A stretch of 61,754 bases of DNA from a bacterium. Lineage in GTDB: Bacteria > Patescibacteriota > Patescibacteriia > UBA9934 > GWF2-40-263. The DNA lies in NCBI GenBank assembly GCA_020052445.1, contig JAGVPA010000023.1, positions 1 through 61,754 of the forward strand. The letters run 5' to 3'. Below are positions 1,402-55,994 of the stretch, piece after piece (position 1 is the stretch's first letter; each line of letters begins with the position of its first letter). The translations under genes and the position numbers were made by a program. Below the pieces are notes generated by a model. It had not been told where the DNA came from, did no database searches, and saw only the letters and a program-made list of their open reading frames with translations.

Positions 1402-1527
1402 GCAGAGTCTGTGAATTTGGCGCATAACTTCGTCAAGGCCTAAATTTTTTGTTCAACGTATCTTTTATACGTTTCACAAAAAATTCAGGTCTTTCCTCGT
1501 TCTGCATCCAAATTCACAAACTCTGCC
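1402..1527 (-). repeat. Long hairpin repeat, family H1, copy A
   Basis: Arms of about 19 nt (GCAGAGT..GTGAATTTGG and its complement) enclose the H1 core with CCTAAATTTTTTGT / ACAAAAAATTCAGG arms. It fills the hisS-rpsU gap. Orientation is opposite to copies B-E, and the outer arms differ from theirs. Confidence 0.85.
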
Positions 1528-1588
1528 GTTAATTTTAGAATTCTTTAAAATCCTAATTTAAAATTCGACGCTGGTTATAATGCCTCCT

Positions 1589-3022
1589 TTAGCGCTTGGT
1601 GTCAAGGCCTTTGGCTATTTCCAGTTTCTTTTTCATGATTTGAATGATTTTGCTGGCATCAACAATTTCTTGAGCGCCGGATTCCATATCACGAACTATG
1701 ATTGTGCCATCAAGAACTTCCTTTTGTCCTAAGATCAAAGTAAAGAGCACGCCAAGCTTATTAGCTAATTCCAACTGAGTTTTCAAAGAGCCTTTACCAA
1801 AAGCCTCGCGGACACTAATACCAGACTGACGAAAATCCTCAAAAACCTTTAGGCCGACACGACGAGCCGAGTCACCTAACTGAGCAAAAAAGACATCGAC
1901 TTTTTTGGCTGTTGGCTGAACTTTTAATTCTTTCAAAGCCAACACAATGCGCTCCATACCCAAGGCCACACCGCAACCCGGAGTTCCCTCTCGACCACCA
2001 AGAAGTTCGACCAAACCGTCGTAACGACCGCCGCCACCAATGGCGTTCTGGGCTCGTTCACCTTCATCGTTCACTGTCCAAATCTCAAAAACTGTGCGGT
2101 TGTAATAATCGAGTCCGCGAACCAAATGTGGATCAAGTGTGTAAGGTACACCAGCTTCGTCTAAAAATTCCAAAATGCGCATGAAGTGATTTTTTGATTC
2201 CTCGTCAAGCCAATCAAGAATTTGCGGGGCGTCAGCTTTCACAGCTACACAGCCTTCAACCTTACAATCCAAAAGACGCATAGGATTTTTTAAAAGGCGG
2301 CGTTTGCAATCTTCGCAAATCTGATTTTTTTTGGTGCGATAATAAGAAGCCAATTCTGTTTTATAAGCTTGACGCGAATCCTGAGTACCGATGGAATTCA
2401 TGCGGATGTTGGTTTCCAAACCAATGGTTTTTAAAAGATTGTAGACCATGACAATAATCTGCGCGTCGATGATAGGTTCGGAACTACCAAAGGCCTCGAA
2501 ACCGATTTGATAAAACTGACGATAACGACCGGCTTGTGGACGGTCGTATCTAAAGTTTGGACCTTCGTAAAAAAACTTAACTGGCTGAGGCAGGTTTAAC
2601 ATGCCGTGATTGATATAAGCTCGCGCCGCCGAAGCCGTCATTTCTGGACGCATAACCACTTTATCACCACCCTTATCCTCAAAACCGTAAATTTCTTTTT
2701 CAACAATATCGGTCTGTTTACCGACGGTACGAATAAATAATTCCTCCTTTTCCAAAATTGGAAAATCAATCCGATCAAAACTGTAAGTCTCGGCCATGCT
2801 TTTGGTCGCTTCGCGCAAAATCTCCCAATAGATTTGTTCGTCTGGCAGAATGTCACGAAAGCCTCGCAAAAGTTCAGGGGTTTTTCGACCCTTTGGTAGC
2901 GGTACGACTGGTTGCTCTGGATCTGAGCTTTTCTTTTTTAATTCTTCCGGCTCTTCGATTTTCTCTTCAACCTTAATCGGTTTTTCTATTTTTTTCACCG
3001 GGGCTTTTATTTTGTTGGGCAT
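1589..3022 (-). CDS. hisS: Histidyl-tRNA synthetase
   Basis: 477 residues; class II synthetase that charges tRNA-His in the cytoplasm. Visible motifs: the HisA peptide LVRGLDYYNRTVFE, GGGGRYDGL, motif 3 GVALGMERI, and motif 2 around FRYDRPQAGRYRQF. The C-terminal ~95 residues are the anticodon-binding domain. The family is usually ~420 residues; the excess is an N-terminal Lys/Glu/Pro-rich, probably disordered extension of ~45 residues before PKGRKTPELLRGFRDILP. No Shine-Dalgarno is seen before the ATG. It lies between lepB and rpsU, separated from each by a copy of the H1 hairpin repeat. Confidence 0.95.
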   Translation of the reverse strand: MPNKIKAPVKKIEKPIKVEEKIEEPEELKKKSSDPEQPVVPLPKGRKTPELLRGFRDILPDEQIYWEILREATKSMAETYSFDRIDFPILEKEELFIRTVGKQTDIVEKEIYGFEDKGGDKVVMRPEMTASAARAYINHGMLNLPQPVKFFYEGPNFRYDRPQAGRYRQFYQIGFEAFGSSEPIIDAQIIVMVYNLLKTIGLETNIRMNSIGTQDSRQAYKTELASYYRTKKNQICEDCKRRLLKNPMRLLDCKVEGCVAVKADAPQILDWLDEESKNHFMRILEFLDEAGVPYTLDPHLVRGLDYYNRTVFEIWTVNDEGERAQNAIGGGGRYDGLVELLGGREGTPGCGVALGMERIVLALKELKVQPTAKKVDVFFAQLGDSARRVGLKVFEDFRQSGISVREAFGKGSLKTQLELANKLGVLFTLILGQKEVLDGTIIVRDMESGAQEIVDASKIIQIMKKKLEIAKGLDTKR

Positions 3023-3041
3023 ATCTGGTGGAAATTATTTC

Positions 3042-3096
3042 CCGCCGTCATAGGATTTTGGCGGGACCCCGTCAAAGGCCTCCGTCGGCGGGGGAA
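3042..3096. repeat. GC-rich palindromic repeat, copy 1 (family G)
   Basis: Starts CCCGCCGTCATAGGATTTTG and ends TCCGTCGGCGGGG. An exact reverse-complement copy lies at 12455-12509 and a diverged one at 11155-11207. It is followed by short AATTTTCGAATTA words to about 3130. Confidence 0.8.
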
Positions 3097-3201
3097 TTTT
3101 CGAATTATTGAATTATCGAATTAAGGAAGCTCGATTTTTTAGAATAAGAAATTTCCTTCATTTAACATTCCAACATTGGTAATTCGTTTTCTAAATTATA
3201 T

Positions 3202-3322
3202 AGGGCTTTTTCATTTGGATGCAGAACGAGGAAAAGCCTGAATTTTTTGTGAGACGTATGCCTTATACGTTGAACAAAAAATTCAGGTTTTGACGAAGTT
3301 ATGCGCCAAATGAGAAAGTCCT
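3202..3322 (-). repeat. Long hairpin repeat, family H1, copy B
   Basis: Ends AGGGCTTTTTCATTTGG and CCAAATGAGAAAGTCCT pair; the inner arms CCTGAATTTTTTGT and ACAAAAAATTCAGG pair perfectly. It starts one nucleotide after the lepB stop codon on the minus transcript. Confidence 0.9.
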
Positions 3323-3323
3323 A

Positions 3324-3947
3324 TTACAAATTGTAAGATGGGGTTTCAAAAGTGCCGATTCTATCAAAAGGTAAACCGCGCACCCAGACCCGACCGATAA
3401 TATCCTCTTTTGGCAAAACTCCCCAAACCCGCGAATCAGAACTGGCATCGCGATGATCGCCAAGAACAAAATATTCGTCGACTCCAAGTGTGACCTTTTT
3501 TGTCCCTGTCGTCACCGTACCTTCCGGCAAATAAACCGATTCGTCAAGCGCTAGGCCGTTTGGATGTTCATCGTTATAAATTATTACTCGACCGTTTGAG
3601 ACCTCAACTGTCTCGCCTGGCAAACCAATAATTCGCTTAATGAAAAATTCCGATGGATCTTTTGGATAACGAAAAACAATAGTTTCGCCGCGAGCCGGCG
3701 CCTCAAATCGATAACTCAATTCGTCGATAATCAAATATTCACGATCGTAAAAATTCGGTTCCATGGACGCGCCTTTAACATAAAAAGGCTGAACCAAAAA
3801 ATAACGAATAGGAATAATAATAGCCGCAGAAATAACAGCGATTTGAACAAACTCCAAAATCAAAACAATCACCGTTCCGGCCGGGATGCCGAATTTACGG
3901 TGCCAAAAAGTGTCATTTGAGTGTTCCTGGCGACAAAAAAGTTTCAT
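3324..3947 (-). CDS. lepB: Signal peptidase I
   Basis: 207 residues. One membrane segment (about 22-47) is followed by the catalytic serine in GASMEP (Ser61) and the general base lysine in FIKRIIGLPGE (Lys104). The later box GDHRDASSDSRVWG is the conserved S26 region. The enzyme cleaves signal peptides at the outer face of the membrane, with the N-terminus in the cytoplasm. Length is typical for a short bacterial form. The minus transcript probably continues into hisS through the H1 hairpin and a G-family repeat. Confidence 0.93.
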   Translation of the reverse strand: MKLFCRQEHSNDTFWHRKFGIPAGTVIVLILEFVQIAVISAAIIIPIRYFLVQPFYVKGASMEPNFYDREYLIIDELSYRFEAPARGETIVFRYPKDPSEFFIKRIIGLPGETVEVSNGRVIIYNDEHPNGLALDESVYLPEGTVTTGTKKVTLGVDEYFVLGDHRDASSDSRVWGVLPKEDIIGRVWVRGLPFDRIGTFETPSYNL

Positions 3948-3991: not shown

Positions 3992-4131
3992 GGGCGCGAA
4001 TTACGAATTGGTACGAATATACGAATTACGAATGTTGGCGAATATTACAAATACTGATTTTGAAATTAGCAAATTTGTATTCGTACCAATTCGCAATTCG
4101 TATATTCGCGTCGTATTCGTAATTCGCGCCC
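3992..4131. repeat. Long palindrome built of ACGAATT words
   Basis: About 60-nt arms, beginning GGGGCGCGAATTACGAATT and ending with its near complement, are made of repeated ACGAAT/ATTCGT words. It separates lepB from the next small genes. No coding sense is evident. Confidence 0.75.
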
Positions 4132-11127: not shown

Positions 11128-11154
11128 ATTGGCATGGAGGGGCACGAATTATCC

Positions 11155-11235
11155 CGCCGACGGAGGCCTTTGGCGGGATCCCGTCCGAGGCCAACGAGGC
11201 GGGACGAATTTTGGACGAATATACGAATTACAACA
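11155..11235. repeat. Diverged G-family palindrome plus ACGAATT words
   Basis: CCCGCCGACGGAGGCCTTTG opens a GC palindrome ending near 11207; GACGAATTTTGGACGAATATACGAATT words follow. Both repeat types also occur alone elsewhere in the window. Confidence 0.65.
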
Positions 11236-11239
11236 CCCA

Positions 11240-11276
11240 TCCGTCATCCCGAGCCAGAGAGGGATCTCGCCGCGTG
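11240..11276 (+). repeat. Single arm of the GTCATCCCGAG..GGATCTCG repeat
   Basis: CCGTCATCCCGAGCC...GGATCTCGCCGCGTGG, like the arms at 9271-9407 and 45327-45360. It lies 30 nt before the PLP-enzyme start. Confidence 0.6.
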
Positions 11277-11305
11277 GCCCAAACAAATCCTCAATCAAAA
11301 AACAT

Positions 11306-12328: not shown

Positions 12329-12548
12329 CAATCCGCAAAACTTGACTAAAACCCAAAAAACGACCATTATCTAAACCACAATCGTAATTCACAAATTTCC
12401 AAATTTTCCAATTTCCAAATTATTGAACAAAATTTCCTCCATAATTCAAAAATTCCCCCGCCGACGGAGGCCTTTGACGGGGTCCCGCCAAAATCCTATG
12501 ACGGCGGGAAATAATTAAATAATTAAATAATTCAATAATTTCAACCAC
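12329..12548. repeat. Intergenic repeat stretch before topA (contains G-family copy 2)
   Basis: 12390-12425 holds CAAATTTCCAAATTTTCC words. 12455-12509 is the exact reverse complement of the repeat at 3042-3096. 12510-12545 is AATTAAATAATT words. I see no gene or clear promoter here. Confidence 0.75.
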
Positions 12549-45263: not shown

Positions 45264-45430
45264 ATTTTGATTGTCCGAACCGTGATTTACATGATTAAAG
45301 GATTATCGTGATTATAGAACCCCCCCGTCATTCCGAGCCAGAGAGGAATCTCGCCACGTGACTTCAACACTCAAAATTCAAAACACCAATCCAAAAATCC
45401 TGTTAATCCCAAAATCCCACAAATCCCAGT
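45264..45430. repeat. adk-map intergenic repeat stretch
   Basis: 45327-45360 is an arm of the GTCATTCCGAG..GAATCTCGCCACGTG family. Around it are ATGATTAAAGGATTATCGTG words and AATCCCAAAATCCCAC words. No gene seen. Confidence 0.6.
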
Positions 45431-46188: not shown

Positions 46189-47022
46189 CTACCTTGCGAA
46201 GGCTACGCCATTGCAACGAGCCTTCTCCCAGTCCCAGTCACTGAAATAATCTGGGAATCGCCACGTCCTACCGATCTTGTAGGCGACACAGATCTCGACC
46301 CCGTCGACGAACCACGTCTTCTTTTCCAATCTGAGCTCTTCGGCCTGGAAGTCGGTCGGACCCTCCGCCGGGATGACCGTGCAGACGGTCGCCGGATTGT
46401 CGATCAGGCCGTCGCAGTTGTTGTCGATGCCGTCGCAGATCTCCTTGGCGCCGGGATGGATGTCGGGATTGGTTTCGTCGCAGTCGCGGGGTTTGGCAAC
46501 CCCGTCACTGTCGGCGTCGCAGTCGACGAGTACCTCGTCGATCTCGCCGTCGTAGTCGTTGTCCTTGTCATCGCAGATCTCGGAAGCGCCCGGGTAGGAC
46601 GCCGGATCTTCGTCATTCCGATCCGTGATATCGGTGACGTAGCCATTGGGCTGCGAACAGGCCAGAACTTGAACTGAGTAATGGCTTGCACCGAATCCGT
46701 CCTGATCACGGTCCTCGCCGAAAAGGATTACTCCAGGCAGTTTCCTGTTATCGTCGGTAACCGAGAGCAGCGCCTCGTCGACTTTGCCGTTGCAGTTGTT
46801 GTCGATGCTGTCACAGATCTCCATGGCGTTGGGTGCGATATCATGGTTCATGTCGTCGCAATCGCCGCAATGTGCGACGATACGACCACCTTCCCTCACC
46901 CCTCCGTCGTGCTGCTCCGCTTGACTGCAGTCGTTGACGTATCCATCACCGTCAACGTCCTTGTGGTCACAGGCAGCGAGAAGAGCGATGACAGAAAGAA
47001 GAAGGAAATGAATGCTTCGCAT
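46189..47022 (-). CDS. Lipoprotein with MopE-type metal-binding repeats
   Basis: 277 residues. A lipobox LLAAC puts the lipidated Cys at residue 18. Three repeats of the putative metal-binding type follow: MEICDSIDNNCNGKVDE, SEICDDKDNDYDGEIDE and KEICDGIDNNCDGLID. Ca-binding-like DxDxDG loops (DVDGDGYVND, EDRDQDGFG, DADSDGVA) lie between them. The C-terminal 50 residues are Trp-rich and unlike the repeats. Exposed on the cell surface; probably a calcium- or metal-binding adhesin-like protein. A strong GGGAG ribosome-binding site, its own terminator and a GC-rich composition mark it as an insert between secY and adk. Confidence 0.8.
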   Translation of the reverse strand: MRSIHFLLLSVIALLAACDHKDVDGDGYVNDCSQAEQHDGGVREGGRIVAHCGDCDDMNHDIAPNAMEICDSIDNNCNGKVDEALLSVTDDNRKLPGVILFGEDRDQDGFGASHYSVQVLACSQPNGYVTDITDRNDEDPASYPGASEICDDKDNDYDGEIDEVLVDCDADSDGVAKPRDCDETNPDIHPGAKEICDGIDNNCDGLIDNPATVCTVIPAEGPTDFQAEELRLEKKTWFVDGVEICVAYKIGRTWRFPDYFSDWDWEKARCNGVAFAR

Positions 47023-50012: not shown

Positions 50013-50024
50013 ACTTTTGTTTTT

Positions 50025-50146
50025 AGGACTTTCTCATTTGAGTGCAGAACGAGGAAAGGCCTGAATTTTTTTGTGAAACGTATCAACATACGTTGAACAA
50101 AAAAATTCAGGTTTTGACGAAGTTATGCGCCAAATGAGAAAGTCCT
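50025..50146 (-). repeat. Long hairpin repeat, family H1, copy C (rplF/rplR)
   Basis: 122 nt. Outer arms AGGACTTTCTCATTTG and CAAATGAGAAAGTCCT are perfect complements; inner arms CCTGAATTTTTTTGT and ACAAAAAAATTCAGG too; the tip is ACGTATCAACATACGT. Fills all but 19 nt of the 141-nt gap. Confidence 0.95.
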
Positions 50147-50153
50147 AATTTTA

Positions 50154-51294: not shown

Positions 51295-51305
51295 AATTCA
51301 CTTAT

Positions 51306-51426
51306 AGAACTTTCTTATTTGGATGCAGAGCGAGGAAAAGCCTGAATTTTTTGTGAAACGTATGCCTTATACGTTGAACAAAAAATTCAGGTTTTGACGA
51401 AGTTATGCACCAAATATGAAAGTTCT
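51306..51426 (-). repeat. Long hairpin repeat, family H1, copy D (rplE/rpsZ)
   Basis: 121 nt. Outer arms AGAACTTTCTTATTTGG and CCAAATATGAAAGTTCT; inner arms as in the other copies. Changes in one outer arm are mostly matched in the other (C to T with G to A; AGGACT/AGTCCT to AGAACT/AGTTCT). Confidence 0.93.
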
Positions 51427-51429
51427 AAC

Positions 51430-51981
51430 TTACTTTTTGTCATTTGTTATCTTAAAAGGGAAACCCAAGGCGGTGAGTAAAGCTCGACCTTGTTCCTTGT
51501 TTTTAGCCGTAGTAGTAATAACCACCTGAAGACCGTGTATAACTTCAATTTCATCAGGAGAAATTTCTGGAAAAGACACATGTTCACGAAAGCCTAATGA
51601 ATAATTGCCTCTTTCATCGAGAGCGTCTGGAGAAATTCCACGAAAGTCGCGAACGCGTGGCAGGGTTACATTAACCAATCTGTCTAGAAAATCCCACATG
51701 CGTTTACCGCGCAAAGTTACCTTCATGCCAACCACCATGCCTTTTCTGATTTTAAAGTTAGAAATAGAAACCCGAGCCTTACACTTAACTGGCTGTTGAC
51801 CGGTAATGCGACGAAGAGTGGCTTCGGCGGTTTCCAAATATTTAGCCTCTTTAATCCCCTGACCTAAACCAACATTAAGAGTAACCTTGGAAATTTTTGG
51901 CACAGCCAAGGCATTTTTAAGTCCCAAATCTTCAGCAAGTTTAGGAGCAACGGTTTCTTTGTAGAAATTTTGCAACGACAT
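51430..51981 (-). CDS. rplE: Ribosomal protein uL5
   Basis: 183 residues, with VTLNVGLGQGIKEAKYLETAEATL, MVGMKVTLRGKRMWDFLDRLV and the conserved DFRGISPDALDERGNYSLG. It contacts 5S rRNA and the P-site tRNA. 2 nt from rplX. Confidence 0.96.
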   Translation of the reverse strand: MSLQNFYKETVAPKLAEDLGLKNALAVPKISKVTLNVGLGQGIKEAKYLETAEATLRRITGQQPVKCKARVSISNFKIRKGMVVGMKVTLRGKRMWDFLDRLVNVTLPRVRDFRGISPDALDERGNYSLGFREHVSFPEISPDEIEVIHGLQVVITTTAKNKEQGRALLTALGFPFKITNDKK

Positions 51982-54998: not shown

Positions 54999-55013
54999 AA
55001 CTAATTTTGATTT

Positions 55014-55135
55014 AGGACTTTCTCATTTGAGTGCAGAACGAGGAAAGACCTGAATTTTTTTGTGAAACGTATCAACATACGTTGAACAAAAAAATTCAGG
55101 TTTTGACGAAGTTATGCGCCAAATGAGGAAGTCCT
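55014..55135 (-). repeat. Long hairpin repeat, family H1, copy E (rplB/rpsS)
   Basis: 122 nt, nearly identical to copy C (one visible change in an outer arm). It begins 4 nt after the rplB stop codon on the minus transcript and ends 15 nt before the rpsS ATG. Confidence 0.95.
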
Positions 55136-55139
55136 ATGA

Positions 55140-55994
55140 TTATTTCACCGAGCTACCCACAAACCGACCCTTAGGACGACGTTGGACAATCATCTTGTCT
55201 GAAGACTTGCTTTTACGTGTTTTGACACCCAAGGCTGGTTTACCTTGTGGGGTCTTTGGGTGTTTCAAACCGATTGGGTTACGACCTTCACCGCCACCGT
55301 GTGGGTGATCAACCGGGTTCATAACCTTACCACGCACGGTTGGTCTGACACCCCGATGACGAGTTCGGCCGGCTTTACCCCAACGGATTAAACCATAGTC
55401 TGGATTTGAAACTACACCTACGGTTGCCATACATTCTTTGGCCACCATTCGAACTTCACCTGAAGGCAACTTTAATGTAGCAAATCTTCCTTCAACGGCC
55501 ATGAGTTGGGCCGTACCACCAGCACCGTGAACTAATTGACCGCCTTTTTCTGGTTGCAGTTCAATATCGTAAACGTTCATGCCGACCGGAATATTTTCTA
55601 AAAGAAGACGATTGCCAATTTTAACTTCACCTTTACCACGAGTTGAAACAACGCTATCGCCAATATTCAAACCCTGAGGAGCCAACATGTAACGCTTTTC
55701 GCCATCAGCATAGTTCAAGAGCAAAAGACGGGCACCACGGTTAGGATCATATTCGACAGCCACAACTTTGGCCGGGATATCAAATTTTTCTCGACGATAA
55801 TCAACAACTCGGACATAACGTCGTGCCCCACCGCCACGATGGCGGACAGAAATTTTGCCCATTGAACGACCGGATTTCTGCTTGCGAAAAATCACCAACG
55901 ATTTTTCCGGTTCAGTCTTGGTAATATCCTTAAAAGACTGGACACTGGATAAGCGTCGGGCGTTAGTAGTCGGTTTGTAATTCTTAATTGGCAT
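55140..55994 (-). CDS. rplB: Ribosomal protein uL2
   Basis: 284 residues. Starts [18 protein letters not shown]; contains [38 protein letters not shown] and the catalytic-region loop [23 protein letters not shown] with the conserved His. Essential for subunit joining and peptidyl transfer. 10 nt after rplW. Confidence 0.97.

Follow-up and report, generated by a model that had tools for sequence, protein, structure and literature searches.

We analysed a 61,754-nucleotide stretch of DNA (the window) from a Patescibacteria-type genome of 1.33 Mb in 105 contigs (G000). Near one end of the window, hisS (identified by Pfam tRNA-synt_His) is flanked on either side by two copies of a hairpin, copies A and B, which lie in opposite orientation and have unlike outer arms (Table 1). 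A preliminary description of the sequence had drawn attention to this bracketing, and its coordinates, orientations and arms were all confirmed. The canonical strand, one of the two strands of the hairpin, forms a fold that contains tandem G.A internal loops and has CGTAC..GTACG at its tip. Copy B ends in an A (3323) that adjoins the stop codon of lepB (identified by Pfam Peptidase_S26); the start of copy B one nucleotide past this stop, as previously described, is recovered when the end of the element is set at ..CCT, leaving a 1-base gap. Copy A had been placed between hisS and rpsU, which holds as to position; the gene to its left resembles bS21/rpsU by eye and has no Pfam match. Three of the five copies in the window lie inside a ribosomal-protein operon.

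Table 1 Hairpin copies of the window, with their settings and flanking sequences
Feature	Coordinates	Canonical strand	Arms	Setting	Flanking sequence
Copy A hairpin	1402-1526	-	GCAGAGTTTGTGAATTTGG / CCAAATTCACAGACTCTGC	between hisS and S21-like gene, sense to both	TAACG / GTAAG; no clear target duplication
Copy B hairpin	3201-3323	+	TAGGGCTTTTTC / GAAAGTCCTA	abuts lepB stop codon; antisense to lepB and hisS	TTATA (3196-3200) / TTACA (3324-3328)
lepB stop codon	3324-3326				
Further copy	50024-50147	+		between rplF and rplR	GTTTT / ATTTT
Further copy	51305-51427	+		between rplE and rpsN	exact duplication ACTTA (51300-51304 / 51428-51432)
Further copy	55013-55136	+		between rplB and rpsS	exact duplication TGATT (55008-55012 / 55137-55141)

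The arms of copy B read TAGGGCTTTTTCATTTGG and CCAAATGAGAAAGTCCTA (compare Table 1). Those of copy A, 19 bp each, are private: neither a second occurrence (GCAGAGTYTGTGAATT) nor a matching IS was found anywhere in G000. On the explanation favoured below, copy A would either have acquired its arms recently or be an old insertion that has lost its duplication through decay. Other repeats lie in the same region. A second dispersed repeat of 79 nt, which contains CCCCGCCGACGGAGGCCTTTGACGGGGTCCCG, is present between copy B and hisS (3033-3111) and, 97% complementary, at 12438-12516, with a shorter third copy at 11147-11183; an AT-rich palindrome of CGAATTACGAAT-type units is located upstream of lepB (4014-4108). 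Positions 46189-47022 encode a protein with repeated MopE-type metal-binding motifs (PF11617), the repeats being specified by DNA repeats of family D3.

Mobility and a likely IS701-family partner

G000 contains at least 27 copies of this imperfect hairpin of ~123 bp, each scoring more than 79 bits on the canonical strand. Under covariance model R1, the complements of true copies reach at most 53 bits, and this value was therefore taken as the noise level of R1 for long palindromes. The nearest genome searched (G001; same genus, with ~65-95% amino-acid identity in the genes compared) contains zero hairpin copies, and its rplE-rpsN, rplF-rplR, rplB-rpsS, lepB-hisS and hisS-rpsU junctions, corresponding to all five copies of the window, are empty. 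The junctions examined in other relatives are likewise empty. Across the 27 copies of G000, the two 5-bp flanks match at 90 of 135 positions, compared with 48.1 ± 5.3 when flanks were shuffled between copies; seven of the duplications are exact (0.39 expected), and the signal is limited to five positions. Target duplications are weak or absent in genomes G046, G043, G034, G020, G028, G003 and G032. The preliminary description had named empty sites and target duplications as the signs of movement to look for, and the same ends at orthologous junctions without empty sites as the opposite outcome. Both signs are present, the former at all five window junctions in G001 and the latter as the 5-bp repeats that flank the family in G000.

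Given the empty sites in a same-genus genome and the 5-bp duplications, the hairpins are thus mobile: they lie inserted between genes with a 5-bp duplication on their flanks, and the nearest relative lacks them at its orthologous sites. Mobility would account for the three insertions in a ribosomal-protein operon that has almost no gaps in relatives. The elements have the make-up of a MITE, being small, non-coding, multi-copy and without transposase, with a duplication of fixed length, empty orthologous sites and terminal inverted repeats, the arms pairing across 16-19 bp in all aligned copies. Derivatives of G000 copies were also observed, namely a shortened copy that keeps the core loop and has a different short inner hairpin (L028, 797-887) and a deletion derivative with a single arm (L029, ~795-833); these are useful for asking which parts mobility requires.

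A search of G000 with copy B also matched two short inverted pieces on contig C82. These are the ends (TAGGACTTTCTCACTT.. and ..AAATGAGAAAGTCCTA) of an IS that encloses a 336-aa transposase of the IS701 family (NCBIfam NF049921, E 3e-100, above cut-off). Many hairpin arms, copy A excepted, are identical to the terminal repeats of this IS (TAGGACTTTCTCA..) along 14-17 bp. The hairpins themselves carry no transposase, and the IS lacks their core. The single-copy C82 IS has no recognisable target duplication of its own. The NF049921 transposase was found in one other genome among 72 of the order, where the ends differ, and arms of the AGGACTTTC type are present as well in genomes that lack it. 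The C82 element is likely to be the mobiliser of the G000 hairpins, a link drawn from sequence that is specific but circumstantial; its DDE transposase would then move them in trans. Another repeat, present in the window at 11227-11285 and 45311-45369 (80% alike; CGTCATCCCGAGCCAGAGAGG-GATCTCG), was also seen at about 700-745 of L030, beside the IS701 element.

An ordinary MITE would be an internally deleted IS whose arms pair by chance, whose compensatory changes arise without selection, through template switching or repair between the arms, and whose core is functionless. The size, the arms, the duplication and the IS that has identical ends all fit this reading. Such MITE/IS pairs are known from RUP and IS630-Spn1 in Streptococcus pneumoniae and from MITEAba12 and ISAba12 in Acinetobacter, the MITEs being small (107-114 bp) and intergenic (PMC2229807, PMC6382973). 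As far as these sources describe them, RUP and MITEAba12 are similar to the G000 hairpins in size, stem-loop, intergenic location, ends that match a resident IS, and target duplication. However, the core of the G000 hairpins is not part of the IS, and the fold of this core is difficult to accommodate on such a reading, as described below.

Conservation of one folded strand

Both copies at hisS fold much more stably than expected by chance (z -15.4 for copy A and -13.5 for copy B, with 0 of 200 shuffles as stable), and in both the canonical strand has the lower folding energy (-68.3 versus -54.9 kcal/mol for the complement in copy A; -67.2 versus -43.3 kcal/mol in copy B). Within G000, AGAACGAGGA, GACGAAGTTRTG and the tip CGTAT..ATACG are constant from copy to copy, and the stems vary with compensation. 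In an alignment of 114 hairpins that was fitted to the structure, 86.8% of pair cells are standard, compared with 35-44% when the partner is slid, and two-sided changes are present at 49 of 50 pairs; a MAFFT alignment of 34 hairpins, which was not model-fitted, gave 88.7% paired and 42 pairs with two-sided changes.

A palindrome without strand preference is expected to have equal numbers of G.U and A.C, and of G.A and T.C. The canonical strand instead has ratios of 340:141 (G.U:A.C) and 301:30 (G.A:T.C). It is also the more stable strand in 109 of 111 hairpins with RNA parameters and in 111 of 111 with DNA parameters, the two strands differing by only ~5 kcal/mol under the latter. Because the canonical strand is more stable under both parameter sets, RNA and single-stranded DNA are not distinguishable here. 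What is conserved in the core is the fold that one of its strands adopts when single-stranded, while the letters of the stem change with compensation. The suggestion that selection acts on the stem rather than on the sequence is thereby upheld, since the pairs covary and G.U and G.A are kept on only one strand. It had been posed as the alternative to a mobile core; mobility and selection on the fold both hold, and the two readings are therefore not alternatives. On the ordinary-MITE reading, correction of one arm by the other would remove conserved mismatches, yet the G.A loops persist.

Rfam covariance models gave no match at the hairpins, either at gathering thresholds or at E up to 10. Integron attC sites were discounted, since relatives have other pairs in place of the AAC/GTT pair found in the core and since the sites are dispersed with target duplications. 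A kink-turn was also rejected; both sides of the internal loop contain bases. Some hairpins of two relatives (L183 and L185 in G046 and L203 and L205 in G043; L199, L207, L208 and L209 in G043) carry nested inserts near the tip, either other small palindromes (CCTGCCTGCCGGCAGGCAGG) or a 45-nt insert, which lengthen them to 143-168 nt. Elsewhere, two hairpins stand in direct tandem, a few bases apart (L051, 1395-1623; L059, 1372-1625; L184, 899-1147).

The core and its ends in other lineages

An exact search for two pieces of the core in 84,980 genomes returned 13 loci, core identity being given by construction. Nearly all of the exact-core loci outside G000 fold to the same hairpin type, and these come from Patescibacteria, Clostridia and one Lentisphaeria genome; a match to the core pattern at L034, where there is no such hairpin, was set aside as chance. 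With model R1, copies with altered core letters were recovered in relatives (for example, AGACCAAGGA/GACAAAGGTATG and AGTGCTAGGA/GACACCGCAATACG), and multi-copy genomes were seen at E up to 1e-5, with 16 copies in Campbellbacteria, 20 in FK3.bin42 and 21 in one Clostridia genome. To avoid circularity, a second model, R2, was built on Patescibacteria hairpins only. With R2, 28 Clostridia and Lentisphaeria hairpins reach scores of 30-62 bits, and only their canonical strand does so; a control on 360 kb of DNA yielded one new true copy and one 27.6-bit match. The family is patchy within the phylum: with an E cut-off of 1e-11 and at most nine candidates scored per genome, it is present in at least 20 of 380 genomes. 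No exact core pattern was found in viral contigs, and blastn returned no phage records. Many hairpins of relatives abut tRNA or tmRNA genes (L053, L055, L057, L063, L064, L075, L102, L133, L136 and others), and some of these start directly after the 3' CCA and have A-tract/T-tract arms.

The Clostridia elements, which are ~162 bp long, have termini that include GAGCCTGTTTAG.., GAACCTGTCCACAT.. and GAGCGTGTTCACAT... Their target duplication is 3 bp (TAA, TTA or TAT), exact in 12 of 19 cases (4.1 expected) and sharp at this length. The two end types are thus TAGGACTTTC with a 5-bp duplication in G000 and the GAGCCTGT type with a 3-bp duplication in Clostridia. The Clostridia ends and their TWA duplication resemble ends and targets of the IS5 type; in the DNA examined, a search for an IS with these ends gave loose pattern pairs, none of them convincing, and no transposase. 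As arms and duplication length differ from those of G000 while the core fold is common, these elements provide the strongest support for a core with changing flanks, and an exchange of ends between lineages is supported by this comparison. The preliminary description had raised the possibility of a mobile core that captured new flanks. Mobility and flank exchange between lineages bear this out, whereas copy A, with private arms and no clear duplication, does not by itself show it. Its remark that the core is kept while the ends vary applies both within G000, where core letters are constant, and in Clostridia, where the same fold lies within other arms.

The same core fold in very different bacteria, within unrelated ends, suggests that it is the fold, and not the letters or the ends, that is preserved. 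It also argues against the ordinary MITE described above, which we consider unlikely. We favour, as the probable explanation, non-autonomous MITE-like elements of ~123 bp in which a structured core persists and the ends are swapped between transposase systems. The core would be the old, persistent part, combined over time with the ends of different systems. Bacterial MITEs are mostly viewed as decayed IS copies in which the ends alone are important. Here, ends and duplication length change, and the folded core persists from Patescibacteria to Clostridia.

In RUP and MITEAba12, as those sources present them, the common feature is the ends, whereas the hairpins described here have a folded core across phyla and differ in ends and duplication length. 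ERIC and NEMIS/Correia are also intergenic, ~100-160 bp in size, with transcripts that form long stem-loops and with reported duplications (PMC2229807); in that account they are like the present hairpins in size, stem-loop, intergenic location and duplications, and unlike them in sequence, hosts and termini (TA, with short TIRs). The description of ERIC and NEMIS/Correia in PMC2229807 includes, in the portion available, neither a core conserved between phyla nor a replication-strand rule, and the portions available of the sources on RUP, MITEAba12, ERIC and NEMIS (PMC2229807, PMC6382973) describe no cross-phylum core fold with differing ends. Searches of the open full-text literature turned up no description of this hairpin family, which is weak evidence of novelty because subscription papers and preprints lay outside the search.

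Orientation relative to replication

In a complete Campbellbacteria genome, part of whose sampled DNA was masked, the leading strand was assigned by GC skew, and in 15 of 15 copies the canonical strand is the one opposite to it. In four more genomes, local 20-kb skew places 18 of 20 copies opposite the leading strand (p 4e-4), compared with 11 of 20 for the majority coding strand, and in FK3.bin42, where skew was read by eye at the closest sampled points, agreement is seen for 11 of 12 copies in regions whose skew exceeds 0.02. In G000, 16 of 27 copies lie opposite the leading strand on flanks that are too short to be informative; in the window, four copies fit the rule, copy A being the exception. 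Where GC skew is usable, the orientation bias follows replication and not transcription. The folded strand would be needed for something, most likely in connection with replication, given its position opposite the leading strand in those genomes that allow a reading.

Either fork-coupled insertion or the loss of copies with a stable hairpin on the lagging-strand template could produce this bias. Directional insertion at forks has been described for Tn7 and IS200/IS605 (PMC5371812), and hairpin loss on the lagging-strand template may be compared with the action of SbcCD (PMC3315005). Simple survivorship, with insertion in both directions and cutting or deletion of copies whose stabler strand is on the lagging-strand template, is a serious possibility, though we would put it somewhat below an even chance. 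DNA parameters make the canonical strand the stabler one in every copy tested; this strand is opposite the leading strand and therefore not on the lagging-strand template, and SbcCD offers a precedent (PMC3315005). However, the strands differ by just ~5 kcal/mol, the lagging-strand reaction was detected solely with artificial palindromes longer than natural ones (PMC3315005), and directional insertion at forks is an equal alternative (PMC5371812).

More tentatively still, the tandem G.A core might be a long-lived transposon parasite that persists as a fold across phyla, repeatedly adopts the termini of unrelated IS families and acts through its folded strand at the fork, with one orientation inserting or surviving; we hold this possible but somewhat doubtful. 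If the explanation favoured above, with ends that change around a persistent core, is right, MITEs would contain a selectable function that acts on one folded strand and is tied to the direction of replication.

Orientation also bears on whether the hairpin is a host RNA element (a terminator, processing site or regulator) that was spread by transposition, its RNA fold being selected at each site. The strong covariation and the preference for G.U would be expected of such an element, and some hairpins of relatives lie at tRNA or tmRNA 3' ends with terminator-like A-tract/T-tract arms. However, copies A and B are not called as intrinsic terminators, for which a GC-rich stem with a T-run after it is required; in four of the five window copies the folded strand runs antisense to its neighbouring genes; and elsewhere there is no preference for the majority coding strand, orientation tracking replication. 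We judge a host RNA element to be quite improbable.

A folded single strand, intergenic sites and replication-tied orientation are also what REP-like elements moved on single-stranded DNA by a Y1 (RAYT/IS200) transposase would show, and REP/RAYT and IS200/IS605 are indeed like the present hairpins in their single-strand folds and replication-related orientation. They are unlike them in that the hairpins have target duplications and no co-occurring Y1 gene: the hairpin-free G001 has seven Y1 genes, none is present in the hairpin-bearing genomes G025, G032, G039 and G041, and no hairpin lies beside a Y1 gene except one by an IS200-type gene. Y1 enzymes are not known to generate target duplications of 5 or 3 bp. 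Movement by a Y1 enzyme, already disfavoured, is thus very improbable. The one adjacent case is on contig C3 of G003 (L119 / L259, 2055-2172), where an IS200-type element with a Y1 transposase of 146 aa adjoins a hairpin with a replaced left arm, which looks like the result of insertion of the element into the hairpin.
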